DNA of 39,357 nt from the IMG/VR virus record IMGVR_UViG_3300046167_000350, positions 1 through 39,357 of that record, one strand, 5' to 3'. Position 1 is the first letter of the stretch; every line of letters begins with the position of its first letter. Below, piece by piece: positions 1 through 37,157 of the stretch. The notes under the pieces are model-generated. The model was not told where the DNA came from and ran no database searches. It was given only the letters and a program-made list of their open reading frames with translations. This DNA comes from a virus. A program made the translations under genes and the position numbers.

Positions 1-3000
1 CATAGGCACCCGAGAACGCTCCTTCGAACTCACCGATATAGTCTGAGGTATAGTTCTCAATATAAGAACTCTCGTAGTTCTGACTTTGGTACGAACCTAT
101 GTAATTCGTGGTGTATTGATTTACGTAGGTAGTCGTATATGCTTCGGTATAATCGCCTGTAAAGTTGCCACCAACATAGACAGTGGCAAACGCCCCTTCA
201 TATTCAGATTGATATTGAGTTGTGTATTGCTCGACGTAATCACTCGTGTAAGTTGCGTTAGTCGAGTAATCGCCAGCAAACTGAGTATCGTACCCGCCTG
301 TGTAATCTGTATCGTAGTTGGCACCAGTATAATCTTTACTGTACTGGATACGATCGTATGATGAGGTATAATTCGAGAGATAAGCGCCAGAATATTGAGT
401 ATCATACTGGTCTACATAATCTGACAGATAGTTCGAACCATCGTATGTTCCAGTAAAGTTTGTATTATAGAGACCAGTGTAATCACCTGTAAACTGTGAT
501 TCGTAGTTACCCTCGTAGATGGTACCGTCATAGATTGTGACGTAACCTGTCTCGTATTGCTTATCGTATGTTCCTGTGTACTGTTCAACATACTGTGCAG
601 TGAAGTTCGCGCCCGTGTATTCTGTTGCATAGTCGGTCGCAAAAGTCTGGTCGTAGTTTGTCTGATATAACGAATCATAGGTACTATCATACGATTGGGA
701 AATCTCAGGACCTTCATATGCTGTGAGGAAAGTACCAACGTAAGTATTTTCATACTCGCTGATATAATTACCATCATAGTCACTACTATAAATGTTTTCG
801 TAATCGTCGGTGAAGTTACCTTCGTAGAGCGACTCGTAATCCGTGAGATATTCGCCCGCATATCCACCAGTATAGATTACTTCATAATCAGTCGTATAAT
901 TTGTGTCATCATAAGCGCCCGTGTAATCTGTATCGTAATTACCATCAAAGTCGCCCGTGTAGTCAGACATTCTTGAATCATCATAATTCATGTCATCATA
1001 CGATACTTGGTAAGCATTTATATACCCTGTATCATATTCACCAAGATAGTCCGACGTGTAGTCAGTCGCATAAGTTGTGTCATCATACTCACCAGTAAAG
1101 TCGCCTTGGTATTGAGTGACGTAATTGCCTTCGTACTCTTCGATGTACTGCGACTCGTAATCTATGCGATCGTATTCACCAACAAACAACGCACCGTACA
1201 GTGAAGCATAGTCTGACTCGTAGTTCTCGCCCGAGTAATCGTTTTCGTAAAGTCCGCCAGTGTATGTCGAATCATACTCACTGACATACTCATTGTCGTA
1301 TGTGCCTTCGTACTGCGTCTCGTATGATTGAATGAATGGAGAACCACCAAAGTCTGCCTCATACAATTCCTCATACTGTGTAGCATAAGCAGAATCATAT
1401 TCGCCTGTAAACAATGTGTCGTAGGACGAATCGTAAACGACATTATAATCGCTTAGATATCCTGTGTCGTACGAACCTTCATAATCAACATTGTACGCGC
1501 CTTCGTAATCTTGTTGGAATTGCGTTGTGAATGCTGTGCTGTACGTAGCATTGTAGGTTCCTTCATAGTAAGAGGTATATGTTCCAACATAATCTGTTGT
1601 AAATCCAGGACCATATGCATCTGTATAAGGCGAGTCATAAGCGCCCGAGTATTGTTGCTCATACTCATCTACATAATCAACATCAAGATAGTCGGTAGTG
1701 TAGTCAGAACCATAACCAGCAACGTACGTACCTTCGTAGTCTTGTAGATAACCACCTACGTAGAGTGTGTCGTATGTTTCAAGTTCGATGCCAGTATATT
1801 CTGTGCCGTACGTACCTTCGTATGACCCTTCGTAGTCACCATCGAAGTCAGATGCATAGACGCCCGAATATTGACTAGCATAATCGCCTGAGTATGATGC
1901 GCCATAAGGTGTATCATATCCAGTTTCATACGTGCCTTGGTAATCCGACAGATATGTTCCATCGTAGTCCGAAATGAAGTTGCCTTCGTAACTATCGTCT
2001 TGGTACTCACTGACATAGTTACCTACATACTCATCAAGATAGTCTGCAACATAAAGAGAGACGTAGTTGCCCGAGTAGGTATCGTCGATGTATAATGACT
2101 CATAAACATTTTCGTAGTCGCCAACGTAATCACTAGAGTATTCACTGATATAGTTACCTACATAATTTTGCTCATCATATTCAACCGCGTAAGGTTCTTC
2201 AGCATCGGCACTATCATAGACATTCTCGTACTCACCCGTGTATGGCATACCTTCATATGATGATTCATAGTCATCAAGATATGTTGTCGTGAAGTCTGCC
2301 TCGTACACAACGCCATAATCTGACATGTACGTTTCTTCGTATTGCTCTAGGTACTCATCGACGTAGAGTTCACCATAAGCACCTTCGTAGGCAGATGTGT
2401 ATGCTTGTTCATATTCTGACGTATATTCGGTAACATAGTTTGATTGGTAATCAGTCGAATATGATAGTGCATAGTCACCAATAAATGTATTGGCGTATGC
2501 TGTCTCGTATTGAACAACAGATGAGTAACCTGGATTTGTCTGATATAATCGACGTGTATCGAGTGCATTGCCTCGAGGAACCCACGTACCAGCATCTGTC
2601 GGTGCACCTTCAGCAGACGATCTTAACTGATACGAACCAATGCCTGTCGTGCCAATGAGTTTCTTACAATACTGACCAAACACAAACGACATGTCTGCGT
2701 CACGCATGACATCAACGCCTTGAAACTCATCGTACGATCCTTTCTTGACTGTGATAGGACGTACTTTAGTTGGTGCAGTGCCAGTGGTTCGAATGAAGAT
2801 AGAATAGTTCTGACTTGATCCATCGCCTCTTGTGTCAGTAAAGACATCTTCTATGAATACACTCCAATCAGAACTCGGTGCGACCTGTGCTAATCGATAC
2901 GTACCTGGAAACTCACCTTCCATAATCTTCTTGAGCAATCGTGTACAAAGAGCATCAAGTTCAGCAGTACCCATTTCTCTCAGACCATTCAGTCCACGAT

Positions 3001-3754
3001 CAAAGAATAGGGGTTTGCGATTATAGTAAGAGTCTTGAAATTGTATAGGGTAGTCGCTTGCACTACTCTGGTGTATGTCTGTTTCTGTGCTAGATGTAAC
3101 AGGTGGACTTGCACCAGTAACTGTGATCGTCTGAAACACTTCTGCATCATTCGAAGCGGAGATGCTATTACTATCATCTCGTGATGCCGCATTAAAGATG
3201 ACATTGAGTAGACCAGTACCTTCGAATGTTACTTGGTAGACAACCTGATAGATCCCATTGAGTGAACCGTCTGGCAATTCTTCCCATGAAACTGTACCAC
3301 CCGACACTGTACTGTCTGCGGTGGGTGTTCGAGTTGTACTGATCGACGCCGCGGCATTACCGTCTAGTGTCAATTCGTATTCGATTGCTTCGAATCCAGT
3401 ACCTGTGTGAGTTGCAGTACCATTGACAGTGATTCGTAGTACATCATCGACTGCGACTGCGCTAGGCAAGAATGGTGCATCGATAGAAGTAAGGTGAGTA
3501 GAGATACCGTCACTGACATGCTCGACCTCGATAGTTCTATCGATGACTGAGACATTAGGTACGCCAGTTGGATCTGTATAGAAGGAGTCGGTGTAAGTAC
3601 CTACTAATGTACCTACGCTCGTTGAATTAAGTGCACCAGCAGTTGTTACTGTCGATTCACCAAGATTGATACCAGCACGAAATGCGAGATAATCTTCTTC
3701 AGAACCGAGCAGTTCCTGTAAAGGACCGCTTAATGACTTTAATGGGTGTGACAC
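1..3754 (-). CDS. Tail-fibre-like virion protein with giant xxxY tetrapeptide repeat (3' partial)
   Basis: An open frame runs from a GTG at 3754 to the left edge without a stop, so the C-terminus lies outside the window. An in-frame TAA lies directly before the GTG, and a perfect TATAAATA late promoter sits about 30 bases upstream, which fixes the start. The first ~410 residues resemble fibre modules of T4-like marine phages, with GTYRLAQVAPSS and GTTGIGSYQL segments. From about 2530 down to base 1 the protein is an almost uninterrupted tetrapeptide array in which every fourth residue is Tyr (sometimes Phe), for example SDY-VTEY-TSEY-EQAY. Spacers are rich in D, E, G, S and T, and units are occasionally 5-6 residues. 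On the order of 200 units are visible. Codons vary between units, so the periodicity is kept at the protein level. It is last in the baseplate/fibre operon, which suggests a fibre or adhesive role; the exact function is unknown. Confidence 0.85.
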   Translation of the reverse strand, partial: MSHPLKSLSGPLQELLGSEEDYLAFRAGINLGESTVTTAGALNSTSVGTLVGTYTDSFYTDPTGVPNVSVIDRTIEVEHVSDGISTHLTSIDAPFLPSAVAVDDVLRITVNGTATHTGTGFEAIEYELTLDGNAAASISTTRTPTADSTVSGGTVSWEELPDGSLNGIYQVVYQVTFEGTGLLNVIFNAASRDDSNSISASNDAEVFQTITVTGASPPVTSSTETDIHQSSASDYPIQFQDSYYNRKPLFFDRGLNGLREMGTAELDALCTRLLKKIMEGEFPGTYRLAQVAPSSDWSVFIEDVFTDTRGDGSSQNYSIFIRTTGTAPTKVRPITVKKGSYDEFQGVDVMRDADMSFVFGQYCKKLIGTTGIGSYQLRSSAEGAPTDAGTWVPRGNALDTRRLYQTNPGYSSVVQYETAYANTFIGDYALSYSTDYQSNYVTEYTSEYEQAYTSAYEGAYGELYVDEYLEQYEETYMSDYGVVYEADFTTTYLDDYESSYEGMPYTGEYENVYDSADAEEPYAVEYDEQNYVGNYISEYSSDYVGDYENVYESLYIDDTYSGNYVSLYVADYLDEYVGNYVSEYQDDSYEGNFISDYDGTYLSDYQGTYETGYDTPYGASYSGDYASQYSGVYASDFDGDYEGSYEGTYGTEYTGIELETYDTLYVGGYLQDYEGTYVAGYGSDYTTDYLDVDYVDEYEQQYSGAYDSPYTDAYGPGFTTDYVGTYTSYYEGTYNATYSTAFTTQFQQDYEGAYNVDYEGSYDTGYLSDYNVVYDSSYDTLFTGEYDSAYATQYEELYEADFGGSPFIQSYETQYEGTYDNEYVSEYDSTYTGGLYENDYSGENYESDYASLYGALFVGEYDRIDYESQYIEEYEGNYVTQYQGDFTGEYDDTTYATDYTSDYLGEYDTGYINAYQVSYDDMNYDDSRMSDYTGDFDGNYDTDYTGAYDDTNYTTDYEVIYTGGYAGEYLTDYESLYEGNFTDDYENIYSSDYDGNYISEYENTYVGTFLTAYEGPEISQSYDSTYDSLYQTNYDQTFATDYATEYTGANFTAQYVEQYTGTYDKQYETGYVTIYDGTIYEGNYESQFTGDYTGLYNTNFTGTYDGSNYLSDYVDQYDTQYSGAYLSNYTSSYDRIQYSKDYTGANYDTDYTGGYDTQFAGDYSTNATYTSDYVEQYTTQYQSEYEGAFATVYVGGNFTGDYTEAYTTTYVNQYTTNYIGSYQSQNYESSYIENYTSDYIGEFEGAFSGAY

Positions 3755-3782: not shown

Positions 3783-4007
3783 CTATTTATATGTTTTTGA
3801 AATCAGTAATTGTATACCTTGCTTTATTTCTGACATGTCTGCCTCAAGAGCGGTGATTCTCTCGGACAGTTCTTGTTCTTTTTGTTTGCGGATTCGCTTA
3901 CGTTCCCTCGCTTGCGCGATCTCTGCACTGTTCGTATTGATCAATGCGTTAGTTTCGAGATCACGTACAAGCGAGGAATGTCCTTGTACAGGTATATATC
4001 TACTCAT
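3783..4007 (-). CDS. Small conserved structural-region protein with coiled coil
   Basis: A 74-residue protein. The N-terminus MSRYIPVQGHSSLVRDLETN resembles a small protein found beside baseplate genes in marine T4-like phages. From about residue 30 to 65 it is highly charged (ARERKRIRKQKEQELSERI) and continues as a heptad-like segment, so a coiled coil is likely. Its ATG shares one base with the stop of the 1774-aa gene upstream (TAATG), implying translational coupling. Its position between the large DUF4815-type protein and the fibre-like protein suggests a virion or assembly role. No enzymatic motif is visible and the function is unknown. Confidence 0.75.
   Translation of the reverse strand: MSRYIPVQGHSSLVRDLETNALINTNSAEIAQARERKRIRKQKEQELSERITALEADMSEIKQGIQLLISKTYK
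3784..3791 (-). promoter_or_regulatory. T4-type late promoter (TATAAATA) for the fibre-like gene
   Basis: The plus strand reads TATTTATA, giving TATAAATA on the minus strand, an exact match to the T4 late -10 element. It lies about 30 bases before the GTG start at 3754 and overlaps the end of the 74-aa gene upstream. A gp33 late co-activator gene is present in the window. Confidence 0.75.
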
Positions 4008-7000
4008 TAGACACCCAAGTATCTGACTCTCATATCCTTCAGACTGACATTACCTGCATCTTTACCTGTAATGACAAACTTAGATTGAACCTGATTAAAG
4101 GCACTTAGTTGACCACCCTGACCACCTGGCAAGAATCGAAGTTCGTTGAATGACTGATCATTCGTTGGTGCTACTCGATTCTCAGGAGTCTGGTAGATCC
4201 ACGATTCATCTGCGATGTTTTGATCAGCACCACAGGTACGATAGTAGTAGTCTACATTACATCCTTCGCCCAGAGAGACATCAATCTTTGTTTCAATACC
4301 CACAGCATCTTGCTCTAGTGTAACAGGAGTTGTGATGTGTTTGCAACCAGTCGAACCACCATAAGGTTGTGTCTCATCGACAGGATATATGTGAGGAGTG
4401 ACCGTAGGATCATCAATGCATTCTGTGATTAGGTGCAGTGATGCTCTCTGTAGATCGACGACAGGTGAAACGTAATCGCTTGCACTCTTCATGTCTATCT
4501 TAACGTAGACCGATGCATCACCACCTAGATCATTTGTCTCTGCTTCGAAGTTATAGATTGCTCTTGGTTTCTCGAAGTCAAGATTCTGCTTAGGAGTAAT
4601 TCGACCATATCGTGCATCTTGTACGAATCGAGTGTTAGTACCCGAAACATACTTACCTGAAGTAAACTTAGCAGATACATCGGTAGACGTGTAGTTAGGT
4701 ACAATCGTTTCAACATAAGGATGTACAACACGGAATGCTTTGTTGCGTCTTGACAGTACTTTCTCACCACCACCTACTGCGTCAGACGTAGCAGATGCAC
4801 CCGCAACAACTTGATATCCATGTAGATCTACCGCAGTCACTGCTCGTGACCCTTCAAGATTTGCAATGCTAATACCACCAACTGCTTCGCAACTGTCGAT
4901 AAATGCATTATCGCCTACTTCAAGACCATGACATGGATGCGAGACGTAGATCGTAGATGATAAGTTGGTTGTGCGTATTGGATTGTTGTCTAACTGTCGA
5001 GCACTCAAGTTAGCATTCTTCAGTATCAAAGAACCGCCAGTTGTGTCAAACGATGCACGAGTTAACTTCATCATGAGATCTTGATCTTTTGTACCAACCC
5101 ATGCAAGACCATTCTGAGGAAGATAGAGATTACCAACACGCTGAGTGCTTGCAATCTTCTGACTTTGACCAAACACATTCTCTTGTGTCTTCGCACTGAA
5201 CAGTTCGTACTCGGTACTTGCTGTCGTAATGACCACAGCATATTCTGTCCAAGGTGATAAGAAGATAGGTTCTTCAAATGTGAACGTAGTCGGTGCCGCT
5301 TGAATCAAACTCAATGTGGTGTTGCTAGGCGTTGCAGTAACAGAACCAGCATTGACAGTCACATGAGAGTCTGGTATAATATCATTTGGTGATGGCGCTC
5401 CATTCTCTACTGGTCGTATATGAATACTGACAGGTAGATTAGACGTAGTTGGTTTCGCCGCGAAAAACAGATCGATCTTCGTCAACGTCAGACCAAACTG
5501 ATTGTCTACGTAGAATGTTTGTGCCATAGGATTCTGTGGCACACTTAACGTGTTGACAGACGATCCTGCAAACTGTTGCTTGTTGACGCTCACATAATCC
5601 GAAAGGACTTGTGACATCGTACCGTCTACATCAAACCCATTTAATGCGGCAAGACCTAGAGGTACTGTACTAGGACCGTACTTACCAGCAGTCTGTGGAT
5701 CTACGTATGCATTACCAACAGCGGCGGCAGAGATCGCATCAAGAGAGTTTTGTAACTCACGAGGATTGTATACACCGGGGAAGCGAGGATTGTTGAGTGA
5801 CAACGGATTCGCGGCATCTAACCGGCGTGTTGTCATAACATTCTTCCACTGATTCCAAAGTGCACCAAACACTGAGTAGTATGCAAAACACTTGCTATCA
5901 CTCTGTGCCCAGTTGTTCTCTGTAATGTCTAACAGTTTGAACTCACGAACACCTGCTCTGAATCTGAATCCCGCTTTGCGAATACGATTGAATCGACGAC
6001 CTCTACCGCGTACTCGTTGTACGTAGTATTGGGGCGCAAGGTTAGGAATGAAGAACGAACCAATGATCTCGCCGTTTGCATCTGAGATGAGTTCAGTCGA
6101 ACCACCTGGATGACCCGTCAATGAAGAGTATGTCTTCTGATTACCAAGATCGTCGGTACGGTCAGACCATGAAACAAATGCTGGTTCTTCTTTTACCCAA
6201 TTGTCTACTTTAGTACCATCAAAGAATGGAGTAAACTTAGTGTTGGGTTTGAGACCTTTCGCATGGAAGAAGATCTTTCTTGATCGTACCCAAGGTATCA
6301 ATGCAAGATCGACAATACGATTACCTACGTGCGATCGAAGTGTGTCAGATGAAATGACTCGGTTAACGAATCGACCATTGCCGTATCGAGGACCATCTTG
6401 CGAGTAAGTAGACTGATACTTCTCACGGAGTCTCAAGAACTGACGCTTTCGTACCTGATAAGGTTTGCGAGAGATATTATTGAACTCTTGATCTTCTACT
6501 GTACGACCACTCCAGTTCCATGTCCAGTTATTCCACAAGAATGCTTGCTTCTGATCTAACTTAGATGAACCATCGACTGCTCGTGCGGCATCTGCTACAC
6601 TCTCTTTCCATTCGTCAGACGATGGTGAGAGTTTTAGAGTACCAACGTTATCGATGTTACCAAAGGGATTCAGATTAACTGTGCGTGATGCCAGATTCTG
6701 ATCGATCCATGTTGCGTCTGTATGCTTCAGATAAACGTTATCGCCCTTCTTCACAACACCTGCGGTAGTTAATGTGTTGTCGATGATCAAACGAATGTTG
6801 TCTTCGTCTGCTTTGGGTCGAATCAATTTGCTTTCTGGATCAAGTGATGCAGAGTAATCGGGTGACTGAGTGTCAGCACCAGTCTGATCAGAGAAGTCAT
6901 CGACCTGACTACCAGACTCGATACGCTCATTTCCACTTGAGTCAAGTGCCAGTGATAACTTCTGTTCGAGTTCGAGGATACTTAACTGAGTAAACTCGAT

Positions 7001-9331
7001 GTGTCCGTCTAACTTGTTTTCGAGTTCTGCAATGTCTGCCATCGTGTATCGCTTATGCTCGATAGGCGTGACTTGCATGTCATCGTTGTCAAGAGTGTTG
7101 GCATTCAATAGAATCTTATAGAGTTCGAGTGATCCGTCAGGTGTCTTCTTGTACTGAGGGTTAGACGATTGCTGTCCCATCAATACTTGGAAATCACCTT
7201 CTTGTGTTACCAACACTTTGTCTGCTCGTGGCAGATAGTATGCGATATCTGCATTAATGCTTGTTCCTGTTCTAGGAAGAGGCATTAGATTAGAGAATGT
7301 AGTACCATCAAAGTCAGGACGGAAGTCAACGTAGTTCCAGAGTGAGACTTCTTCTCCATCGTTTAATGTGTGCGTAGGTATGTTCTTGTACTCAATGCCT
7401 GAGTATGACTGACTCGTATAGAAGTCACCTGCACCGCGCGTGAAGTGCTTGAACTTGGCGTATGCGTTTGCGACATCAAGACCTGCACCACTGTCAAGAA
7501 TCAATCGACCATTTGCATAGTAGTTGTCTCGTTGTCCATCGTCGAGACTTACCACGTTAGTGATGTCAATACCTAATGAGTTAGTAAGTCGAACCGAGTC
7601 TACTTCGAAGATGTCAGGAACACCAAGATCGAAGAACGCAGAACCGTTGAGCGTTTCTTTTGCCGCTGTGACGGTGCTAGTCGTTAACGTCTTGCTTCGT
7701 TGCGTAGATGTTCTCGTAACATAGTAGAGAATGTCATACGATTCGTCAGCAGGTAGACCTGAGATTGCGCCGCCCGTAATCGATGCGCCCGTAACGTAGT
7801 TTGTTGTAGTACCCGAAATGACCCACAATGCTTGATCGACGAATGATTCACCTGCACCTAGTTCAGCAGAGATATCAATCGCTCCGCCGACAGCAGTGTC
7901 AGTGACACTTCGTTGTACTATCATCGTGATATCACTGAATGATTCTGTACGTGGTCGTGATGTAGGCATCAACAAGTCGTTGTTTGTTGTCTCGTACAGT
8001 TCGCCCGACACATCAATAAAGTTTGTCGAACCTGTGCCAATACTTAATACGTCTCGAACTGACTTGCCTGTGGTCGTGACATTGACATCAAATACGTATA
8101 CTTTCCATTGTGCGCCGTCTTCTTCGATTGCTCGAATACGTGCAGTACCAATGTCGGCACCACCCGCAGTCGCCGCATCATATAGTTGAACTGAACCATA
8201 TGTTAGATCTGTTAGATTACGTGCATTGGTCGAGATAAAGTAGTTACCGAACTGAACTGGAACAACATCGTTTGTGATTGTCTCAGTCTCGCTTGGTTTT
8301 GGTAGCGATAACTTGGTTACGGTAGGATTTTCTACTCGATAACCATTGACATATGCAGAACCTTCTGATATAGTAAGTGTAAGATCAGAGTCTTGTACGT
8401 CAAGGTTGACAACGAATGGATTTACGATATAATTGCCAGACTCTTCTTTGGTCCGCAATGCGATCATATCATTGATCTTGTCGTATGCGTCTGTCTCTTG
8501 TACCTTCTCAACGATGGTAGAGTTCTCGATGCGACATAGGAATACAAATGTGTCAGATGCTTCGAGATCTGCTTCGTCGATTAGTTCAAGACGAATACGA
8601 TATCGATCTGCACCAGGACTTGCTGTGTTAAGAGAGTCGCCACTATTATCATAAAGACTTGCATCATCATCTACTGTGATGACTTCTTGAACGACCTTAT
8701 AACCTAACGTACCTGTGTATGTCTCGGTATATGGACTGAGTATCTTTGACTGGGCAGTCGCATGAACGAATCGACCCATGACAAAGAAATCGCCTTCGCC
8801 AACGTCAAAGCGTACGCCTCGACCTACTGCTCGTGGTGTGTGAGTGACTAACTCGTATGAACCATTGACCTGAGACAGTGCGCTGTTGTCGCCAAATCGC
8901 TTGGGAGATGTACTTAAAGCATCACCCGATGTATTACCTGCCGCGATATAGGAGACATAAAGTGTGTCAAGCGCGAACGTTGTGTCAAGTGGTTCTACTT
9001 TCTGAACCTGTGCTCGAACACCATTCGTGTCTTCGAAGATAGCACCAACGGGAATGTCAGCAAAGTTGCCGCCCTGATTCGTCGCCGCGATCTTAACGTA
9101 TTCATACGAAGAATTGACTGACGTTCCACCAGCAGAAACTGCGGCACCTTCCTTGAAGATGTTATTACCGAAGCGTCCCATCTCTTTGTACATGAGAGTC
9201 TGTAACTGAGTAAGTTCTCTTGCTTGCAGTGCACGACCGCTCTTAAAGAGAATCTGATGGAAGTTATCTGCTTCGCTATAATCGTCTTTATAGATTCCGG
9301 ATAACGTTGTAGAAGTATATGTTGTTGCCAT
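4007..9331 (-). CDS. Giant DUF4815-type baseplate/tail structural protein (1774 aa)
   Basis: The N-terminus (TTLSGIYKDDYSEADNFHQI, then GRALQARELTQLQT) matches the DUF4815-type large virion proteins of cyanophages and pelagiphages. They occupy the position where T4 has gp7 and gp10. The rest is long and beta-rich with many Asn/Thr/Gly stretches, as in phage adhesin or wedge proteins, and there is no catalytic motif. There is one short coiled-coil-like segment near residues 765-795 (ADIAELENKLDGHIEF). The start is ATG with an AGGG ribosome site 5 bases upstream. It follows gp8 by 3 bases and overlaps the next gene by 1 base, so it belongs to the baseplate operon. A baseplate-wedge or fibre-connector role is inferred from context. 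Equivalence to a particular T4 gene product cannot be established by eye. Confidence 0.8.
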   Translation of the reverse strand: MATTYTSTTLSGIYKDDYSEADNFHQILFKSGRALQARELTQLQTLMYKEMGRFGNNIFKEGAAVSAGGTSVNSSYEYVKIAATNQGGNFADIPVGAIFEDTNGVRAQVQKVEPLDTTFALDTLYVSYIAAGNTSGDALSTSPKRFGDNSALSQVNGSYELVTHTPRAVGRGVRFDVGEGDFFVMGRFVHATAQSKILSPYTETYTGTLGYKVVQEVITVDDDASLYDNSGDSLNTASPGADRYRIRLELIDEADLEASDTFVFLCRIENSTIVEKVQETDAYDKINDMIALRTKEESGNYIVNPFVVNLDVQDSDLTLTISEGSAYVNGYRVENPTVTKLSLPKPSETETITNDVVPVQFGNYFISTNARNLTDLTYGSVQLYDAATAGGADIGTARIRAIEEDGAQWKVYVFDVNVTTTGKSVRDVLSIGTGSTNFIDVSGELYETTNNDLLMPTSRPRTESFSDITMIVQRSVTDTAVGGAIDISAELGAGESFVDQALWVISGTTTNYVTGASITGGAISGLPADESYDILYYVTRTSTQRSKTLTTSTVTAAKETLNGSAFFDLGVPDIFEVDSVRLTNSLGIDITNVVSLDDGQRDNYYANGRLILDSGAGLDVANAYAKFKHFTRGAGDFYTSQSYSGIEYKNIPTHTLNDGEEVSLWNYVDFRPDFDGTTFSNLMPLPRTGTSINADIAYYLPRADKVLVTQEGDFQVLMGQQSSNPQYKKTPDGSLELYKILLNANTLDNDDMQVTPIEHKRYTMADIAELENKLDGHIEFTQLSILELEQKLSLALDSSGNERIESGSQVDDFSDQTGADTQSPDYSASLDPESKLIRPKADEDNIRLIIDNTLTTAGVVKKGDNVYLKHTDATWIDQNLASRTVNLNPFGNIDNVGTLKLSPSSDEWKESVADAARAVDGSSKLDQKQAFLWNNWTWNWSGRTVEDQEFNNISRKPYQVRKRQFLRLREKYQSTYSQDGPRYGNGRFVNRVISSDTLRSHVGNRIVDLALIPWVRSRKIFFHAKGLKPNTKFTPFFDGTKVDNWVKEEPAFVSWSDRTDDLGNQKTYSSLTGHPGGSTELISDANGEIIGSFFIPNLAPQYYVQRVRGRGRRFNRIRKAGFRFRAGVREFKLLDITENNWAQSDSKCFAYYSVFGALWNQWKNVMTTRRLDAANPLSLNNPRFPGVYNPRELQNSLDAISAAAVGNAYVDPQTAGKYGPSTVPLGLAALNGFDVDGTMSQVLSDYVSVNKQQFAGSSVNTLSVPQNPMAQTFYVDNQFGLTLTKIDLFFAAKPTTSNLPVSIHIRPVENGAPSPNDIIPDSHVTVNAGSVTATPSNTTLSLIQAAPTTFTFEEPIFLSPWTEYAVVITTASTEYELFSAKTQENVFGQSQKIASTQRVGNLYLPQNGLAWVGTKDQDLMMKLTRASFDTTGGSLILKNANLSARQLDNNPIRTTNLSSTIYVSHPCHGLEVGDNAFIDSCEAVGGISIANLEGSRAVTAVDLHGYQVVAGASATSDAVGGGEKVLSRRNKAFRVVHPYVETIVPNYTSTDVSAKFTSGKYVSGTNTRFVQDARYGRITPKQNLDFEKPRAIYNFEAETNDLGGDASVYVKIDMKSASDYVSPVVDLQRASLHLITECIDDPTVTPHIYPVDETQPYGGSTGCKHITTPVTLEQDAVGIETKIDVSLGEGCNVDYYYRTCGADQNIADESWIYQTPENRVAPTNDQSFNELRFLPGGQGGQLSAFNQVQSKFVITGKDAGNVSLKDMRVRYLGV

Positions 9332-9334
9332 GTT

Positions 9335-10684
9335 TTACCCTAGTTGGATTATTACACGAATGTCTTCGGTCTGTGCGGCAGATCTGTCGATCTGGTCGAT
9401 GTTATTTATGTACAAAATATCACCCGAAAATGCATCAACATCGGGATTGTTTTGCGAATTTATCGTCAGTGATATCGAGTTAGTCTCAATACCCGTGATT
9501 ACTTCTGTGTTAGCAAACGTACCAAATCCAGTTGAATCGTTCTGGAAGTAATAGAGTATGTTCGCCGCATTGTCGTGATGGAACACTTTACCTGTGATGC
9601 CAGCAGTATTCTGGAATCTCTCGTCTTCTGGCAATATACTACCCGATGCTGTGACGTTCAATGATCGAAGTACATTCGCAGTTGTGTTGGTGTAGTCACT
9701 GTCGAGTCCAAACTTCTTGGGTCCACGTATCAATGCAATCTGGTTAAAGTCGTTCTCGGTGAGAATGGTCGACCCTTCAGTGTTTACAAATTCACTCTGG
9801 AGCATAATAGCATTTGACTTGAGTGTAGCAACTGGATCAGCACCAGTACCTGTTTTAGGAGCAAACACGGGTTTAATAACTGCGCCCGAACCTGTTGTAT
9901 CTGTAACTGTAATCGATGCATAATCGTAGTTTTGACCATGCATGAATCGACCATTTCCGTCACTATCTAGCACTAGGTTAGTGATCTGTCCACTGGTATT
10001 AACGACAGGAAGAAAAGATGCACTGTCGCCATTACCTACAACTGTGATTGTGGGTGCAGAGTAATTAGTACCTGCACTGTCGATATAGAGAGATAGAATC
10101 TCACCTGAAATTGCACTGTCTTGTAATCGTCGCTGTGTCTGCTCTTCACCAATCGTTAAGGAAGCGAGAGGTCGTGTGATCTCTTTGACAGGCATGAATC
10201 CTTGTGTACGAAACCTAACACGATCCAACGATGACATTGCATAGAGGAATCGCCAGTGATATCCGTCAGTAGTCTTGAATGTCTTTGCTTGAGTCTTTGC
10301 CAACGCACTTGTAGGTTCTACGGTAGATGCCGCTGATGCTCCAGTCTCTTCATTCTTTGCTTGATCGACTACAATGAATACTTCGTTTGCTGAGTTGACT
10401 ACGTAGAAACCCAATTGACCTGGACTGTTGTCACTGTAAGTATTGTAGATTGAACCAGAAGTCCAAGTAACAGTAGGCACCACAAACGATGAGGCACTGA
10501 CTCGCTTCATCGATTGCATCTCTAGTCGAGTCTGCAACTGGAAACGTCGAGTCGATGCATCACTTGGTGAGTTAAATGGTTTTGCTCTTGACAGACCTAG
10601 ATAGAATTTACCACTGCTATCTACATCTGACTTGAGCAAATCAAGTAATGTGTTTCTCAAATTGTTTGTGACTGCCGCCGTCAT
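9335..10684 (-). CDS. gp8: Baseplate wedge subunit gp8
   Basis: A 449-residue protein recognisable as the T4 gp8 family. The N-terminus has the arrangement LKSDVDSSGKFYLGLSRAKP followed by an aromatic region, and DGYHWRFLYAMSSLDRVRF (about residues 141-159) corresponds to the conserved wedge motif. T4 gp8 is 334 residues, so this version is longer, as in marine relatives. In T4 it is a dimer in the baseplate wedge that contacts gp7 and gp10. A perfect TATAAATA late promoter lies 27 bases upstream of its ATG. Its neighbours gp6 and gp25 are the expected wedge partners. Confidence 0.85.
   Translation of the reverse strand: MTAAVTNNLRNTLLDLLKSDVDSSGKFYLGLSRAKPFNSPSDASTRRFQLQTRLEMQSMKRVSASSFVVPTVTWTSGSIYNTYSDNSPGQLGFYVVNSANEVFIVVDQAKNEETGASAASTVEPTSALAKTQAKTFKTTDGYHWRFLYAMSSLDRVRFRTQGFMPVKEITRPLASLTIGEEQTQRRLQDSAISGEILSLYIDSAGTNYSAPTITVVGNGDSASFLPVVNTSGQITNLVLDSDGNGRFMHGQNYDYASITVTDTTGSGAVIKPVFAPKTGTGADPVATLKSNAIMLQSEFVNTEGSTILTENDFNQIALIRGPKKFGLDSDYTNTTANVLRSLNVTASGSILPEDERFQNTAGITGKVFHHDNAANILYYFQNDSTGFGTFANTEVITGIETNSISLTINSQNNPDVDAFSGDILYINNIDQIDRSAAQTEDIRVIIQLG
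9403..9410 (-). promoter_or_regulatory. Weak late-promoter candidate (CATAAATA)
   Basis: The minus strand reads CATAAATA, one mismatch from TATAAATA, about 72 bases upstream of the 1774-aa gene start and inside the end of gp8. The distance is longer than for the other late promoters here, so this is only a candidate. Confidence 0.25.
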
Positions 10685-10710
10685 GTTGTCTTCTCTTTAA
10701 GCGATTCTAT

Positions 10711-10718
10711 TATTTATA
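10711..10718 (-). promoter_or_regulatory. T4-type late promoter (TATAAATA) for gp8
   Basis: Exact TATAAATA on the minus strand, 27 bases upstream of the gp8 start and overlapping the stop region of gp6. It allows late transcription of gp8 and downstream genes independently of gp6. Confidence 0.75.
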
Positions 10719-12510
10719 ATGAACTGGTGATAACTGCCCGTACAGACGATGCATCATTATCAAACAGGAGAAGATTTTCTCGCTGTGGTATGATAACAGA
10801 CTCGTTTGCGGGTGTTGCGGTGATCTTAATGTTATCACCTATCAGTTCACCTGTAAAGTTGGATAGAGTAATGACACCAGTTGAGGCATCATAACTACCT
10901 ATGTTGTCGATCAGTACAGCACCATCACTAATACGAACGACTTCGATATTAGATGTTTTGAGAGCATTGCGGAAGAAGCATTGCTCGTTCGCGATAGTAA
11001 AGTTACCTGATAGTATGCGATGATCTACATCGTCAGGCGTTGCAATAGACGATGGGAAGTTGATTGAGTAGTTAACGACAGCAGACTTAGGTACGAAACG
11101 ATTCTGCATTCTCAGTATTGCTCGACTTGAAAGAATCGATTGCTCGCTCGCATCGATCGCAGTCAGTAGGTTAGATCGTCGGAATGATTCGTCGAAACCG
11201 CCTAGTTCTGTCGCAAAGTAATTCTGCATTGTGGTGCGTACTAATGACTCAACTGCGGTCTGACTCTGTGACGTTAGATTTGGATTGAACTGAAATACAA
11301 CATCAACCTCAAGGAACGTCTGGAGAGGATCAGTGAACTCGACATCGAACGATGCGACCGACAGATTCTTTGCGAGATTCTTGATGTCTGCTTTCGCGTC
11401 TGATTGAATCGTTGTGTCATCTGTACTGAAATCAATCGATACGAATACACTGCCATACTTGGGCGGTACGTTCTCTTCACCACCCCATGACTTAATGTCT
11501 TCGATAACGTTCGGGAAGTTTCGTCGTATCAGTGCAGAGTAATCGCTTGCTGTTACCATTCGATTCTGTGATGCATAGAGATACGGAGCATTCTTGCGTA
11601 TTGACTCAAGTTCTTCTTTGAACGATCCACCTGTGCTTGACGATACAGTTACCACGTTAATGACGCCTGCAAATCCTGCGATGGTAGATGAAGGTGCAAA
11701 GTTTCTCGCCCCGTTCGCGCCAGGTCCAGATGTCGTAGAGTATTCGACAACGATCTTCTGTCCTGTCTGCGGTGTATTACCTAGTCGTGTGCCATTGCCA
11801 AATGTGATCTCGTAGAATCCGTTTGGTGTTTCTTTGATGATGTATAACTTAGATGTGGCATCGATTGAACTGGCATCATTGATGTTAATGTATCGATCAA
11901 ATGTAGAACTACTAACACTATCATACACTTTTACGACCACTGTGTCAAGATCTAATGTGTTAACAGGTATCACATACGTGTCATCTTCGCTTGCAGGACC
12001 TGCAATGAATGTCTTGGTCTTTGCTACGCCCTCAAAGACAGGAACGTTCTTATTACCGTCAAGGGCAAACGTATAGAGATTAGACCCATCACCTGAGTTG
12101 GTTGCAATCAATGTGTCACGAGTCACGAATGTAAATGACTGATTGTCTACTGTAGACGTAACAATGAAACCTGCAGGTATTGTCATGCTACTGGGGTTCG
12201 CATTGTTTGTCACTGTAATGTTGACAACACCACGCGATGCTTTTCTAGATCCGACTTGATACCCTAGACTACCTGCCAGACCAATTAATGAACTCCGCAA
12301 TTGTGCAGTGGACAGAAATGATTCGTTCAGTGCAAAGTTTGCCAACAGACCATTATAGTGTGTGTTGTATGCCAGCACATCAAGAAGACTTGAGAGACCT
12401 GATGCTTCAAAGTTGTAGTCTGCAAAATCAGGTTGTTGCGCCAAGAATGTTTTAAGACTATTCTTGATTGCATCAAAGTCTAACTCTGTTGAGTTGATTG
12501 TTGTTGCCAT
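10714..12510 (-). CDS. gp6: Baseplate wedge subunit gp6
   Basis: A 598-residue protein with the gp6 signature near the N-terminus: DYNFEASGLSSLLDVLAYN (residues 31-49) followed by THYNGLLANFALNESFL, very close to the corresponding T4 gp6 segment. T4 gp6 is 660 residues and forms the continuous wedge ring (the counterpart of P2 gpJ). The central part (residues ~270-380) includes NAPYLYASQNRMVTASDYSA, matching the J-like core. The ATG follows a GGGGATAAGAG ribosome site. It is transcribed after gp25, with 12 bases between them. No anomalies are visible. Confidence 0.92.
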   Translation of the reverse strand: MATTINSTELDFDAIKNSLKTFLAQQPDFADYNFEASGLSSLLDVLAYNTHYNGLLANFALNESFLSTAQLRSSLIGLAGSLGYQVGSRKASRGVVNITVTNNANPSSMTIPAGFIVTSTVDNQSFTFVTRDTLIATNSGDGSNLYTFALDGNKNVPVFEGVAKTKTFIAGPASEDDTYVIPVNTLDLDTVVVKVYDSVSSSTFDRYININDASSIDATSKLYIIKETPNGFYEITFGNGTRLGNTPQTGQKIVVEYSTTSGPGANGARNFAPSSTIAGFAGVINVVTVSSSTGGSFKEELESIRKNAPYLYASQNRMVTASDYSALIRRNFPNVIEDIKSWGGEENVPPKYGSVFVSIDFSTDDTTIQSDAKADIKNLAKNLSVASFDVEFTDPLQTFLEVDVVFQFNPNLTSQSQTAVESLVRTTMQNYFATELGGFDESFRRSNLLTAIDASEQSILSSRAILRMQNRFVPKSAVVNYSINFPSSIATPDDVDHRILSGNFTIANEQCFFRNALKTSNIEVVRISDGAVLIDNIGSYDASTGVITLSNFTGELIGDNIKITATPANESVIIPQRENLLLFDNDASSVRAVITSSL

Positions 12511-12522
12511 CTCTTATCCCCG

Positions 12523-13188
12523 TTACGGCGTTTCTTCGGTAATTAGTGTATTCGTTTCGTCTTGTGTCAGTAAGAATAGATCAAATTCTGTTAGAATCGC
12601 TCCTTCAATCGCGGCACTAACGTCGAACGATAAGAAGTCACCATTTGGATCTACCTGTAATCGATCACCACCTTCTTGTAGAAGCACATTGACCGGATCA
12701 GGATCGGGTGACTTGGGTGGAGCAACAACGGGTATCGCTGTTCGTCCAACAAAATCACCTAGTTTAACTTTCAGTACGTCAACGACATCTGTATTGACAA
12801 CACGAAACTGAATGGTAACACTCACACTGTTGTAGTCTGGTGTCGCAGATACTTTAAGATCTAGTATCTTTGCACGTGGTTCGTATCGTTCTACCGACTT
12901 CGTGATGTTCTCAATGATCTCATCACCAGTATCTTCGTCTGCCAATTCGAATAAGAGACCACCAAGATTCGCACCGAAGTTAGGTCGAAATGGTTTCTCG
13001 TATCGATTTGTCAGTAGCAGAGTCTTAATCGACTGCTTAACAGCACCTGCATCCAACTTGCGGAATACATCACCGTCGTTAGATGTTCGTGCCGCTAGTG
13101 TCAAATCTAGATCAGCATACGTACGCTCACGAGTGACTCGTGCTTGCTTCTTTAGATTTGCATCTTCAATTGAAAATACTTTTGCCAT
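12523..13188 (-). CDS. gp25: Baseplate wedge subunit gp25 (lysozyme-like fold)
   Basis: The gp25/GPW family is recognisable from the segment after residue 50: AVKQSIKTLLLTNRYEKPFR, then PNFGANLGGLLFE, then VERYEPRAKILDLKV. In T4 gp25 starts sheath polymerisation and joins gp6 and gp53 in the wedge core. T4 gp25 is 132 residues; this protein is 221, with an extra C-terminal segment of roughly 75 residues, as in marine relatives. Its own TATAAATA late promoter lies about 27 bases upstream. Confidence 0.9.
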   Translation of the reverse strand: MAKVFSIEDANLKKQARVTRERTYADLDLTLAARTSNDGDVFRKLDAGAVKQSIKTLLLTNRYEKPFRPNFGANLGGLLFELADEDTGDEIIENITKSVERYEPRAKILDLKVSATPDYNSVSVTIQFRVVNTDVVDVLKVKLGDFVGRTAIPVVAPPKSPDPDPVNVLLQEGGDRLQVDPNGDFLSFDVSAAIEGAILTEFDLFLLTQDETNTLITEETP

Positions 13189-13951: not shown

Positions 13952-15399
13952 TTCTTCACCTTGAATCGTTTACTGCGATTGTCACTCGGATTGTTACCAA
14001 TCAGATTAATACCGAATCGTATAGTACCTTCTTTGTTTGCACTGCGCCCAATGTTTGCTTGAATGTTCTTTTTGAAGTCTTTGTTAAGTAGACCCTTACC
14101 AACAAGTGCACTGGTAAACTTACCATTCTTGAGGTGTGCGGGATCACGTAACTTACTTCGAATCTCGTGTATCGTAGGATCAAAGTTAAACAGATCCTCG
14201 TAGTCATCGCTCTTCAGTATCTTATCTTTCAGTTTAGGGTCAACTGATACGAAGCGAATACCATAGTTGCTTGTCGCCAATTGAAGTTCAACGACTGCTG
14301 GATTAGGAATTGGTGCAGTAGGGGGCAAAGGAAGATAAGGCATGATACCAGGTTTCGGGGGAACCGGAGTAGGTGGTTTGCCTTTGTCTTTGACCGCTGT
14401 TAATGCTTTACCTGCTCCTTTAGAAAACCCTGCTTGTGACGCAAACATCGCATAGTCTGCGTGTAATGCCTCGGTTGCTTTACCTACTAATGAACCATAG
14501 AACGTTGAAAGATTCGTGACACCACCAGGCATACCGCCGTATGTCTTGCCATAGAAATCCATTAAAGGGCCGCCAAACGTTCCTTTGTGCCCGATCATAC
14601 TGACATGACGCGCAGTAATGTTTGCGATACTTGCCGCGGCAGTCCATTCACCTACTGCTGTAGTCACTAGATTACCACTGGTCAGTATCTCAGTATTGCC
14701 TTGTGTAAGTTGCTTTAAATCTTTCGCAGTGATGATGGTCTGATTACCCAGTACTGTCTGCGATGCATCGTTAACAACCTGCTCGCTTCGACTACCACGA
14801 ACTGTGTAGTTCTGATCTTTGTTGACGATCTTGGTGTGACGACCGTGTATGTCTTCATCGACATCACCGCCTACATTGACGTTGTAATTACCGCCTACGT
14901 TCAGATTAAAGTCACCTGCGATATCTAGGTTGACGTTGCCCTTATAGACTAGATCACCTTCGCCCTCGACGATGACCTTGCTTGCGCCACCAATAACTTC
15001 GACTCGTTGTGTTCGTGATGTTATGAGAACACTACCGTCAGGTCGTAATTCCATACCAGCACCAGTACGATGCTTGATCAGAATACGTTCAGCACCCGGC
15101 GTGTCATCAATCTCCATGACATGACCTGATGCTGTTTCTTGTACTTGATTGTAAGGAAACTTAGAAGGTTGTTCGTCGCTCAGTTCAAGGTCGACACCAA
15201 TATCACCGCCACCTGTAGCAAGACGATTGATTCCTTCACCCTTTGCACTCTTGTTAATCGATGAACCAAAGAAATAGTCGCGCTTAGGAAATTCACCCGA
15301 AGCATCACTGAACCCTTCGACTGGCACACCTTCACTGACTTCTTGACCTTCGCCAAGAACTCGTTCTCGATTCTTTAAACTGTCTAGTTTATTCGTCAT
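13948..15399 (-). CDS. gp5-like C-terminal beta-helix spike protein
   Basis: A 483-residue protein that corresponds to the C-terminal part of T4 gp5, the membrane-piercing spike. Residues ~90-125 contain HVMEIDDTPGAERILIKHRT and the GMELRPDGSVLI motif typical of VgrG/gp5 proteins just before the triple-stranded beta-helix. Residues ~125-260 then show the alternating Val/Gly/Asn/Asp pattern of the helix (NVGGNYNVNVGGDVDEDIHG). A Pro-rich linker near 343-370 and a C-terminal domain follow. It lacks both the OB-fold and a lysozyme domain; these are in separate neighbouring genes. The start overlaps the amidase gene by 11 bases, suggesting coupled synthesis of one hub complex. Confidence 0.85.
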   Translation of the reverse strand: MTNKLDSLKNRERVLGEGQEVSEGVPVEGFSDASGEFPKRDYFFGSSINKSAKGEGINRLATGGGDIGVDLELSDEQPSKFPYNQVQETASGHVMEIDDTPGAERILIKHRTGAGMELRPDGSVLITSRTQRVEVIGGASKVIVEGEGDLVYKGNVNLDIAGDFNLNVGGNYNVNVGGDVDEDIHGRHTKIVNKDQNYTVRGSRSEQVVNDASQTVLGNQTIITAKDLKQLTQGNTEILTSGNLVTTAVGEWTAAASIANITARHVSMIGHKGTFGGPLMDFYGKTYGGMPGGVTNLSTFYGSLVGKATEALHADYAMFASQAGFSKGAGKALTAVKDKGKPPTPVPPKPGIMPYLPLPPTAPIPNPAVVELQLATSNYGIRFVSVDPKLKDKILKSDDYEDLFNFDPTIHEIRSKLRDPAHLKNGKFTSALVGKGLLNKDFKKNIQANIGRSANKEGTIRFGINLIGNNPSDNRSKRFKVKK

Positions 15400-17326
15400 T
15401 GGTGTTTATCTCGTCCACAGTGAATGGTTCATTAACAGATGGATCTTTGTCAAGTGCATCATAGAGTGATGTTTTATTAAAGTTGGCACCAACATAGTTG
15501 ATCACATCAAACCCAGGATCGACTTCATCTTCGTCCACATCATTGTGTCCTAGCACCTGACCACCTGGATACGTATTATAAAATGCTCGACAAATGTGGT
15601 CAAATGTGTTAAACTGTGACCGTGTGAGTGATTGAACATCAATAAAGTTCTCGCTATTTGGTGTTCCAGTTGGTACGTTTATACCACCCACAAATACAAC
15701 ACCGATGCTTCGTGTGTCATGACTGTTAACAGGTGAGTGTTGCCCTTCAAGATTAATAGGTCGTCCACGTTGTAATGATCCATCGCGCCGTATGACGTAA
15801 TGATATCCAATGCCGTCTAGACCTAACTCTATATGATATTTATTGATCTCTTCAGAACCGATATTCTTGTTCGTGTTTGTTTCTGTCCAGTGCACAACCA
15901 TCTCTGTGACATCGCGAGTGATACTTTGAAACTCTGCAACGATCTCTTCTAGTGATGAGATGTAAGGGAAGTATGGATCACCTGCGCCATCATTCCACTG
16001 TTTCTCGAACGAACCAATGACATAAGGTTCGGCGAACACTGTTTCGCTAGGCGAAGGTCTTGTCGATGCAGTAATGGTCGAGTCGATTGAGTTGAGGAAC
16101 GTAGTCGCACTCTCATACCCTTTCTTACCTACACCAACCAGAATCTCTCGGGCGGCACTGAACTCGCCCGCATCACCCTGTGCTTTTGCAATGACAGACT
16201 GGATCTGATCATCTGTTAACTTAGGTGCGTATGCTTTGACCTTTGCAGTCAGACTCTCGTTTAACTCTGCGTTCAGACCTTGGACAATACCAATCTCGCT
16301 GTTCTTCGTTGCTCGTGTCTTAATCAACGATTGATAATCAGCACCCTTGCTTGTGTAGTTAGATGCACTTCTTGACTTGTTGTCTATCGATGCGATCACT
16401 TCGTCAGGATTCTTACCGCCACTTAGATTCTCGAAGTCGCTCTTACCACCCACAAGATCTTGCTTAATCTGCTTGTCGGTCGTTACCAATTGGTTCAAAT
16501 CGCTGTTGACATCATCCTTGACTTTTGCTATACTCTTGTTAAACTCGGTCAGTACTTCAGGTATTCCTGTTACTGTATCACCGTTATTGTATGATGTGAT
16601 AGCATTATCTACTGCGGTACGTGTCTCGACAACATTACCGAGTCCATCACTATCAACCGCGCTTACAAAATTATATGCAGTGTTAATATTCTGTAGAGTA
16701 CCTGACTGACTTACGAGTTGGTCTGTTACACTGTTGACAGCGGCGCTGGTCAATTCTTTGATATTCTCAGCACTCGTAAATGCACCTATCTTATCTTGAA
16801 GTCTAGTGCCTGCTTCCTTAAGTCCTTCGTTTGTTGCGTCAACCACTGCTTCTTGTAGACTGCCACCATCCACACCCAGACCCGTAATCAATTTCAGTAC
16901 TGCCGCTACTGTTCCGCTGATGCCACCTTCTTCATCAAGTGATGCAGAGATGGGGAAGACAATACCGTTAGAGTCTGGTTCGCCAAACGTGATTTGTACT
17001 TTGCTTCCTAGTTTGGATGAGAGTGCACTCATTGCACCGTTGACTAGATCTGTCTTAAGGTTCTCGATGCTTTGTGCATCACCATTTAAAAGACCTTCGA
17101 CATTCTGCTTTGCTTCTTTTGCATCTGAAATGAGAGCATCTTTCTTTTGACCAAGAGTTTCAATACCACCTGTGATAGCACCGCTAACAGAACCTGCGAT
17201 CGTTTCAGTAACGTTTGTTACATCTGTCTTGAGTTGAGTTGCCGCATCGTCTAATGCTTTCTTCGAGGCAGACTTCTCGGTCTGTTCGACCGCTTTTGTT
17301 AGTACTTCTTTCTTATCTGTAGTCAT
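15389..17326 (-). CDS. Hub-associated N-acetylmuramoyl-L-alanine amidase with long helical N-terminus
   Basis: Residues 1-~420 are Ala/Ser/Thr/Lys/Asp-rich and mostly helical, without recognisable catalytic motifs. Residues ~470-615 form an Amidase_2/PGRP domain of the T7-lysozyme type: EMVVHWTET (H479), GIGYHYVIRRDGSLQRGR (Y508), then GHNDVDED (H594) and DPGFD (D603). H479, H594 and D603 fit the three zinc-ligand positions, with Asp in place of the T7 Cys. The position of the T7 catalytic Lys is Glu601 here. The family cleaves the amide bond between muramic acid and L-Ala. The gene lies between the OB-fold gene and the spike gene and overlaps both (4 and 11 bases), so the enzyme is probably a virion-borne lysin acting during tail penetration. 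Confidence 0.85.
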   Translation of the reverse strand: MTTDKKEVLTKAVEQTEKSASKKALDDAATQLKTDVTNVTETIAGSVSGAITGGIETLGQKKDALISDAKEAKQNVEGLLNGDAQSIENLKTDLVNGAMSALSSKLGSKVQITFGEPDSNGIVFPISASLDEEGGISGTVAAVLKLITGLGVDGGSLQEAVVDATNEGLKEAGTRLQDKIGAFTSAENIKELTSAAVNSVTDQLVSQSGTLQNINTAYNFVSAVDSDGLGNVVETRTAVDNAITSYNNGDTVTGIPEVLTEFNKSIAKVKDDVNSDLNQLVTTDKQIKQDLVGGKSDFENLSGGKNPDEVIASIDNKSRSASNYTSKGADYQSLIKTRATKNSEIGIVQGLNAELNESLTAKVKAYAPKLTDDQIQSVIAKAQGDAGEFSAAREILVGVGKKGYESATTFLNSIDSTITASTRPSPSETVFAEPYVIGSFEKQWNDGAGDPYFPYISSLEEIVAEFQSITRDVTEMVVHWTETNTNKNIGSEEINKYHIELGLDGIGYHYVIRRDGSLQRGRPINLEGQHSPVNSHDTRSIGVVFVGGINVPTGTPNSENFIDVQSLTRSQFNTFDHICRAFYNTYPGGQVLGHNDVDEDEVDPGFDVINYVGANFNKTSLYDALDKDPSVNEPFTVDEINTNDE

Positions 17327-32897: not shown

Positions 32898-32898
32898 T

Positions 32899-32946
32899 AG
32901 TTTATTATGCGTACCAACTGTTAGTTTATTATGCGTACCAACTGTT
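32899..32946. repeat. 24-bp tandem duplication at the end of the 188-aa gene
   Basis: Two identical adjacent units (32899-32922 and 32923-32946), each containing TTATTATGCGTACC. On the minus strand one copy spells the gene end (NSWYA then TAA TAA), and the second repeats it after the stop. It looks like a recent slippage duplication. Confidence 0.9.
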
Positions 32947-35332: not shown

Positions 35333-35994
35333 CGGTTTTGTCTCTCTTCGAAGAGGGAGATAGTATTTATCAATTTTTGCGTATGATCGTCACGCTTCTC
35401 AATAAAGATTTGCTCACCTTCGTCACCAGCAATTAGGGTGACAAGTTGTGTGATGGGCATGCCGGTTCTCTCTTCCCACATGATTGCATATGCCGCTTCT
35501 TGTGCAAAATAGTTTTCGACGAATGCTCGCTTCTTCCACTTTCGACTGGTCTTGAAGTCGATGATGGAGATCTTGCCGTCAAACTCAGCAACACAATCGA
35601 CGCGACCAGCAAGACGTAGATGATCCGAGTAAAGAGGTAACTCTTGTCCATAGACTACTCCAATACGTTCGTCTAACGTTTTCTTGACTGAGAGGAACGT
35701 TTCTAGTACGTCTGGCGTGACACCTTCACGATAGTTCTCTTCGTTGTTGATGTACTTCTCAATGATCGTGTGTACAGAGGTGCCACGCCGAGATGCTTGT
35801 GTCGAGATCTTGTTTGCTACTTCAGGACCAACACGTCTGCGCCATGCTTGAATGGACTTCTCGCTGAGAATCGAGAGTACAGTCGTGACAGACGGATACA
35901 ATTCACCAGTTGCGGTGATGTACTTTCGCTTGCCATCTTCGTTCTTAGTCTTGAGATCGCTGTATCCGAGATCAATCGGTTCGTGCTTGAACAT
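35329..35994 (-). CDS. PD-(D/E)XK exonuclease (MGME1/RecB-like)
   Basis: A 221-residue protein. The nuclease core is in the middle and late part: LAGRVDCVAEFDGKISIIDF followed by KTSRKWKK gives the D...DxK-type motif, and ENYFAQEAAYAIMWEE gives the helical QxxxY-type motif. Earlier YPSVTTVLSIL and RRGTSVHTIIEKYI resemble the family's N-terminal region. It is like mitochondrial MGME1 and other Cas4/RecB nucleases common in marine T4-like phages. It processes DNA ends, probably in recombination or replication. Confidence 0.8.
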   Translation of the reverse strand: MFKHEPIDLGYSDLKTKNEDGKRKYITATGELYPSVTTVLSILSEKSIQAWRRRVGPEVANKISTQASRRGTSVHTIIEKYINNEENYREGVTPDVLETFLSVKKTLDERIGVVYGQELPLYSDHLRLAGRVDCVAEFDGKISIIDFKTSRKWKKRAFVENYFAQEAAYAIMWEERTGMPITQLVTLIAGDEGEQIFIEKRDDHTQKLINTISLFEERQNR

Positions 35995-36853: not shown

Positions 36854-37157
36854 ATAATGAGTTCGCTTCTCTATCAAAGGGAGGATACCAAATAGTCTTG
36901 GTCTTGTCAGTCATGGTGCACTTAACTAGTTCGCGAAATGCTTCGAAGTCTTCTTTCGTCTTAAAGCAGACGTTAAGTTTCTTGTAAGGTTTTGCTTCTT
37001 CTTGCTCGAAGTGTGGCATACCTTTCCAATGATCTTGCCAACGTGTGCTGTTTTCCACATCGTCATCACCCATCAATGCTTCGAGTGGGTTAGTCTCATC
37101 TTGAGGTTCGGGTACTAGTACTTCTAGACAATCATCAAAATCTGGTTTCTTAGGCAT
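36834..37157 (-). CDS. ParB-C-terminal-type domain protein associated with DNA modification
   Basis: A 107-residue protein: an acidic, disordered N-terminus (MPKKPDFDDCLEVLVPEPQ), then WKGMPHFEQEEAKPYKKLNV and FKTKEDFEAFRELVKC, ending TMTDKTKTIWYPPF and YAWIDE. This WxxMPxF...Q, kTKxIWYP block recalls the C-terminal domain found with ParB-like proteins in phage DNA-modification operons. It lacks the ParB N-terminus. The TAGT gene starts within its 3' end (20-base overlap), which strengthens a shared function. Exact role unknown. Confidence 0.6.
   Translation of the reverse strand: MPKKPDFDDCLEVLVPEPQDETNPLEALMGDDDVENSTRWQDHWKGMPHFEQEEAKPYKKLNVCFKTKEDFEAFRELVKCTMTDKTKTIWYPPFDREANSLYAWIDE

Follow-up and report, generated by a model that had tools for sequence, protein, structure and literature searches.

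The window analysed here, a linear virus record of 39,357 bases (IMGVR_UViG_3300046167_000350), carries at one edge a gene for a protein built largely of a ladder of aromatic residues. By sequence comparison this protein is a member of a widespread, previously unnamed family of marine T4-like phages. We consider it somewhat probable that it serves a T4-like marine myophage as a very long tail fibre or filament, with an aromatic-ladder shaft that would be glycosylated by an enzyme whose gene is linked to it in relatives. The frame of the ladder gene is still open at base 2 and runs off the window edge at base 1, and its GTG start is backed by the N-termini of aligned relatives, which read MSxPLK. 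The features of this region are listed in Table 1.

Table 1. Ladder gene and neighbouring features in the window.
Feature	Position	Strand	Remarks
Aromatic-ladder protein gene	2..3754	-	GTG start at 3754; 1251 codons in window; 3' end missing
N-terminal module, residues 1-409	2528..3754	-	Non-repetitive
[Y/F]xxx array (aromatic ladder), residues 410-1251	2..2527	-	Many 29-residue blocks of seven aromatics, one 5-residue step between
Late promoter element TATAAATA, T4-type	3784..3791	-	About 30 nt upstream of the GTG
Small ORF, about 74 aa, between VrlC/gp10-like gene and ladder gene	3783..4007	-	About 74 codons
VrlC/gp10-like large baseplate-associated structural protein	4007..9331	-	phrog_358; large gene before the ladder gene
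Baseplate wedge subunits (gp8-, gp6-, gp25-like)	9335..13188	-	phrog_438, phrog_219, phrog_261

The array in the window holds 201 aromatics (177 Tyr and 24 Phe) in 841 residues. The spacing from one Tyr or Phe to the next is exactly 4 in 174 of 200 cases, 5 in 19 and some other value in 7, whereas 1000 shuffles of the array residues gave a mean of 21 spacings of 4 and a maximum of 34. The very long xxxY array of the original prediction is thus real, and its count of about 200 units holds when Phe is included but not for Tyr alone; because the regularity is that of Tyr and Phe counted together, the unit is [Y/F]xxx. That description was also incomplete in overlooking the minus strand, a 410-residue N-terminal module and a super-repeat of 29 residues (seven aromatics). 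At the DNA level, the pattern (TWY N9)x15 had 27 minus-strand matches in the window and none in 100 dinucleotide shuffles. As had been claimed, the DNA units are not identical: 171 of 175 12-nt units differ, and adjacent units resemble each other no more than units paired at random do (0.42 vs 0.44). The Tyr codons are balanced (89 TAT, 88 TAC), and TRF detected no tandem repeat in the array region. Taken together, these observations place the periodicity at the level of the protein. Within the array, Tyr/Phe and G/S/T alternate with D/E/T at other positions, a residue pattern that suggests beta structure. A rule of inside and outside positions is weakened by Arg, which many relatives often have in the middle of the spacer, and spacer preferences vary among relatives in a way that does not fit a single simple rule of this kind.

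Comparison of related sequences indicated that selection acts to keep the aromatic ring and the register of four residues but does not keep the hydroxyl. In the gap-free pair L145/L148, 83 aromatic columns contained 1 nonsynonymous and 15 synonymous changes, and 339 spacer columns contained 51 nonsynonymous and 63 synonymous changes; this pair carries the weight because the aligner favours aromatic pairing where indels are frequent. Over about 2090 residues of L124/L135, which differ by four small indels, the aromatics are 94% identical and the spacers 82%. The clearest pair, L129/L127, keeps the register despite its indels, since all 8 within the array are multiples of 4 residues, while some indels in other pairs (e.g. 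L139/L144) are not. Of the 17 aromatic changes between L139 and L144, 16 exchange Y and F, and across 79 distinct arrays Tyr makes up 0.30-0.99 of the rungs (median 0.65), with Phe occupying up to 70% in relatives. Selection on the protein had been correctly predicted, and the spacing is kept in most relatives while the spacers diverge. Since Phe freely substitutes for Tyr, chemistry that needs Tyr at every rung is argued against; dityrosine links, sulfation or a metal ladder, as originally suggested, are therefore not supported.

The same data bear on the reading that the array is a functionless DNA repeat, drifting by microsatellite-like expansion. Identity peaks at 12 residues in some relatives could stem from 36-nt duplications, but this reading is already refuted, and has next to no probability, given that the DNA units differ and form no detectable tandem repeat in the window, that the aromatics are under purifying selection, and that 54 of 60 distinct complete genes read through without a break to a conserved C-terminal motif like ...ETYTLYVRxA. 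The original prediction had named absence of the periodicity from related phages, or a frame broken by indels, as its refutation, and it passed this check.

The array is more than a plain tetrad repeat. Steps of 5 residues split it into blocks that very often contain seven aromatics, that is 29 residues made up of six 4-steps and one 5-step. Among 258 runs flanked on both sides by 5-steps in the 79 distinct arrays, 159 have seven aromatics, while six and eight aromatics occur in one run each. In the relative L087, thirteen 29-residue blocks follow in succession (e.g. YTGNFLEDYIGDFLEQYTGDFLQNYVDNS), and in some other relatives the identity peaks lie at 12, 28 and 40 residues, equal to 3, 7 and 10 tetrads. 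Because a seven-aromatic super-repeat is hard to obtain from composition or slippage alone, the sequence period of 29 residues points to a structural one.

Structure prediction gave different results for the two parts of the protein. An AF2 model of the N-terminal module was folded over residues 1-378, with pLDDT mostly 80-95 and then a sharp drop; the array modelled as a single chain had a pLDDT of about 25 and no fold. No family-library match (Pfam, PHROGs) or PDB sequence match names any part of the ladder protein, the N-terminal module included. A fold search with this module returned only generic Ig/cohesin/adhesin-like sandwiches that are not distinctive (residues 84-216, Z up to 8.7), and this Ig/adhesin-like beta-sandwich is an insertion absent from part of the family. 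The AF2 result for the array, the dominance of Gly and polar residues in the spacers and a length that spans a few hundred to 3500 residues would all suit an elastic or disordered tether, that is, an unfolded or beta-turn chain of YxGN-like repeats (resilin/elastin-like) acting as an entropic spring from baseplate to terminal binding domain. We regard such a tether as quite unlikely, as the strict register, the multiple-of-4 indels of L129/L127 and the exact 29-residue super-repeat imply ordered packing beyond composition, and AF2 often fails when an obligate oligomer is modelled as one chain, so that its silence weighs little.

On the same strand, the ladder gene follows a block of T4-type baseplate genes and VrlC, with the ORF of about 74 codons between. 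A gene of similar size follows VrlC in phage C48C1, where it is annotated as a virion structural protein, and in HTVC008M, Mosig, Melnitz-3 and ACG-2014d. The octamer upstream of the ladder gene is a T4-like late promoter sequence; considered as a sequence element only, an exact copy is present in the 150 nt before the gene in 62 of 88 distinct family members, against a background of 2.2%. The region after VrlC has been described as a host recognition cluster that holds tail fibres together with glycosyltransferases, among which GT8 is the commonest family (PMC7029224). From its position beside VrlC and the baseplate genes and from the late promoter, the ladder gene most likely encodes a virion tail fibre, in line with the fibre-like protein first proposed.

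Several other features of the window were observed. The baseplate block includes, flanked by two gp5-like hub proteins, a protein of 645 aa that ends in an amidase domain (phrog_822; 15389-17326, minus strand), and a perfect 24-nt tandem duplication, TAGTTTATTATGCGTACCAACTGT, lies at 32898-32946. A cluster of glycosyltransferase-like genes is found at 35972-39188 on the minus strand. The first of these (35972-36877) matches phrog_842 (beta-glucosyl-HMC-alpha-glucosyltransferase); by eye, 37877-38590 has a GT8-like DTD motif and 38523-39188 a GT25-like look, both also on the minus strand.

The family was assembled from a DNA pattern scan and alignment-guided locus searches of IMG/VR, for which over 130 loci were fetched. 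The pattern (TWY N9)x15 also catches low-complexity false matches (FFPP, FGQG etc.), and these were filtered out by unit diversity, by which at least 33 array proteins were chosen from the IMG/VR scan. Searches with the window-type N-terminal module gave 54 related loci, and those with the C48C1-type module gave at least 219 related stretches, with 79 loci fetched; an alignment of all N-terminal modules was too diverse to serve in a locus search. A homologous N-terminal module is common to the intact array genes compared. Complete family genes have about 400-3500 codons, and those of the closest relatives of the window encode 2074-3506 residues. Among 50,697 phage records the sole homologue was in C48C1 (Kyanoviridae); no near-identical DNA was found in phages, and a single-protein search found no close relatives. 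Among the matches listed from a scan of cellular genomes there was only one true array, in a 142-kb contig (L423, JAAXIF010000028.1) from a MAG labelled Sphingobacteriales. The ladder gene, glycosyltransferase and neighbours occur on this contig in the phage gene order, and it is probably a mis-binned phage genome. A literature search, with most subscription papers outside its reach, found no published description of the ladder.

Variation within the family extends to the shaft itself. A few relatives retain the N-terminal module or the C-terminus yet bear other Tyr/Phe-rich repeats (e.g. YIGDFVGNVNYIGNTNPQ). Shafts with such different repeats were seen in L162, L163, L164, L251, L307, L311 and L322, with PYIADPPFILETPYIFDPPYVQN and YAGPTNYAGPTN as further examples, and shaft type therefore seems exchangeable between related fibres. 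In L201, L221 and L235, a tandem pair of paralogous ladder-family genes precedes a single glycosyltransferase gene.

The order of genes 3' of the array gene in relatives is a protein of about 155 aa, an enzyme of about 250 aa, a protein of about 230 aa and an LtfC-like protein. In loci where the array gene is complete and 2.5 kb or more of sequence follows it, the enzyme gene was present downstream in 61 of 63 cases (47 of 48 distinct). In the other direction, the 76 best enzyme loci that extend far enough upstream include 72 with a 4-spaced array gene there, in a locus set biased towards relatives of the query; the remaining 4 have a Tyr/Phe-rich repeat protein upstream, 3 of them with the family C-terminus. 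These downstream genes fall beyond the window edge, so the presence of the enzyme in the window's own genome is something we infer from relatives.

The enzyme is predicted to be a GT8-type (glycogenin-like) glycosyltransferase. Its AF2 model (pLDDT 92.3) has a GT-A fold with glycogenin/LgtC topology, and its best PDB matches are glycogenins (3t7n, Z 17.5, 190 aligned residues, rmsd 3.2 A), followed by Skp1 galactosyltransferase (Z 15.5), GlyE (15.0) and LgtC (14.5), with UGGT also matched; the Foldseek E value is about 1e-8. Residues D89, D91, D191, Q192 and K73 are invariant in 41 sequences, which gives a DxD motif of the metal-binding kind and a DQ motif, and the distal H238 and K245 are at least 90% conserved. 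Searches by sequence gave sub-threshold GT2 matches only in Pfam, and no match to NCBIfam and PDB profiles. Among the 50,697 phage records, the enzyme, like the N-terminal module, matches C48C1 alone.

The protein of about 230 aa that follows the glycosyltransferase (L135:13833-14513 and homologues) has a conserved YPPgG.ISWHNN.NA ... YHaA....R.TVS motif, and among phage records C48C1 is its sole carrier. The motif recalls 2OG-Fe(II) oxygenases, but with HxN in place of HxD; assignment to that class was rejected, the likeness being one of motif (WHNN...YH...R) with no profile support.

Two further readings concern what the enzyme does, and the confidences of all these readings overlap, since the nature of the shaft and the role of the enzyme are distinct questions. 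The enzyme could modify host LPS (superinfection exclusion) and have no role in the fibre, with the ladder a plain fibre shaft; O-chain modification has been proposed for the GT8 enzymes of pelagimyophage host recognition clusters (PMC7029224). This is possible, but we hold it to be less than probable in view of the order of ladder, 155-aa, enzyme, 230-aa and LtfC-like genes conserved in almost all loci, and of the ladder gene or other Tyr/Phe-rich repeat protein upstream of the best enzyme loci. Alternatively, the enzyme may glucosylate Tyr hydroxyls, as the glycogenins that are its closest folds glucosylate a Tyr, and the ladder may be mainly a scaffold for sugar display (a glycan brush) and not a packed core. 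The invariant D89xD91 and D191-Q192, the near-obligate linkage of ladder and enzyme in both directions and their shared match to C48C1 speak for such a filament. It is nevertheless unlikely, as Phe can hold most of the rungs in a relative and the enzyme gene is retained beside an array in which Phe dominates (L066, 77 F to 17 Y), so that the hydroxyl is dispensable at some rungs. GT8-type enzymes also act on sugars attached to Ser/Thr or to lipids, and the enzyme fold is matched by LgtC, UGGT and GlyE as well.

Known systems resemble the ladder in part. Triple beta-helix shafts occur in phage fibres and spikes, for example in the C-terminal octads of T4 gp5. They share with the ladder a long repetitive virion shaft, and 8-residue (octad) stretches occur in ladder relatives, but the ladder has a basic period of 4, with rungs that are aromatic, and a super-repeat of 28-29 residues. 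Like the ladder, resilin-like and other Tyr-rich elastomers have Tyr- and Gly-rich repeats, and they are dityrosine-linked; the ladder differs in its free Phe substitution and strict spacing. The sole homologue among the phage records, C48C1 protein WJE88074.1 (OQ984149), is annotated only as a hypothetical protein. Its N-terminal module is 42% identical over matched pieces, and it has a YTGNYSRNF-type ladder in 3347 aa and the same gene order with a glycosyltransferase downstream. It differs in its Arg/Asn-rich spacers, octad stretches and globular-looking shaft insertions, and no family match was found for these inserted domains. Glycogenin and other GT8 enzymes (LgtC, GlyE, Skp1 galactosyltransferase) are like the linked enzyme in predicted fold and in the invariant DxD and DQ, but share no significant sequence match with it, and the linked enzyme is phage-encoded and fibre-linked. 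The VrlC-linked fibres of pelagimyophages and cyanomyophages (PMC7029224) have the same genome position after VrlC, in a cluster rich in fibres and GT8 enzymes. In contrast, the VrlC regions of the cultured phages HTVC008M, Mosig, Melnitz-3 and ACG-2014d lack a Tyr/Phe ladder, and the word tyrosine does not occur in the main text of that paper.

In the tail-fibre explanation that we favour, the conserved N-terminal module would anchor the fibre to the virion beside the VrlC/gp10-type baseplate protein. The shaft would be a continuous aromatic ladder in which each fourth residue is Tyr or Phe and seven such rungs make up a block (28-29 residues), the ring being selected as a packing element so that the four-residue register is fixed while the spacers drift. 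Such a shaft would most likely be a beta-structured rod, probably oligomeric, which may carry Tyr/Phe and small residues (G/S/T) on one side and D/E/N/T on the other. The variable shaft insertions of some relatives and the C-terminal ...YTLYVRxA may be receptor-binding and assembly parts, giving the fibre a presumed function in adsorption. The glycogenin-fold (GT8-type) enzyme, encoded two genes downstream, would most likely add sugar to the fibre. By analogy with glycogenin, which uses Tyr, Tyr is an attractive acceptor for this sugar, but since Phe replaces Tyr so freely, modification would reach some of the rungs at most. It is improbable, in our estimation, that the protein is a giant filament with a 7x4(+1)-residue structural repeat unlike that of any known fibre, and that a dedicated glycogenin-fold enzyme (perhaps with the 230-aa protein) glycosylates this fibre, the phage's own, on Tyr.

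As a fibre, the ladder protein would belong to a familiar class, and what is new is the type of shaft. Relatives of its N-terminal module are common in IMG/VR viromes (54 and at least 219 stretches) and are unnamed in the family libraries searched. If the protein is a fibre, it would represent a new shaft architecture in abundant phages, and if the linked enzyme glycosylates it, this would provide a concrete, testable example of a glycosylated virion fibre among marine phages and possibly a second use of the glycogenin fold on tyrosine.
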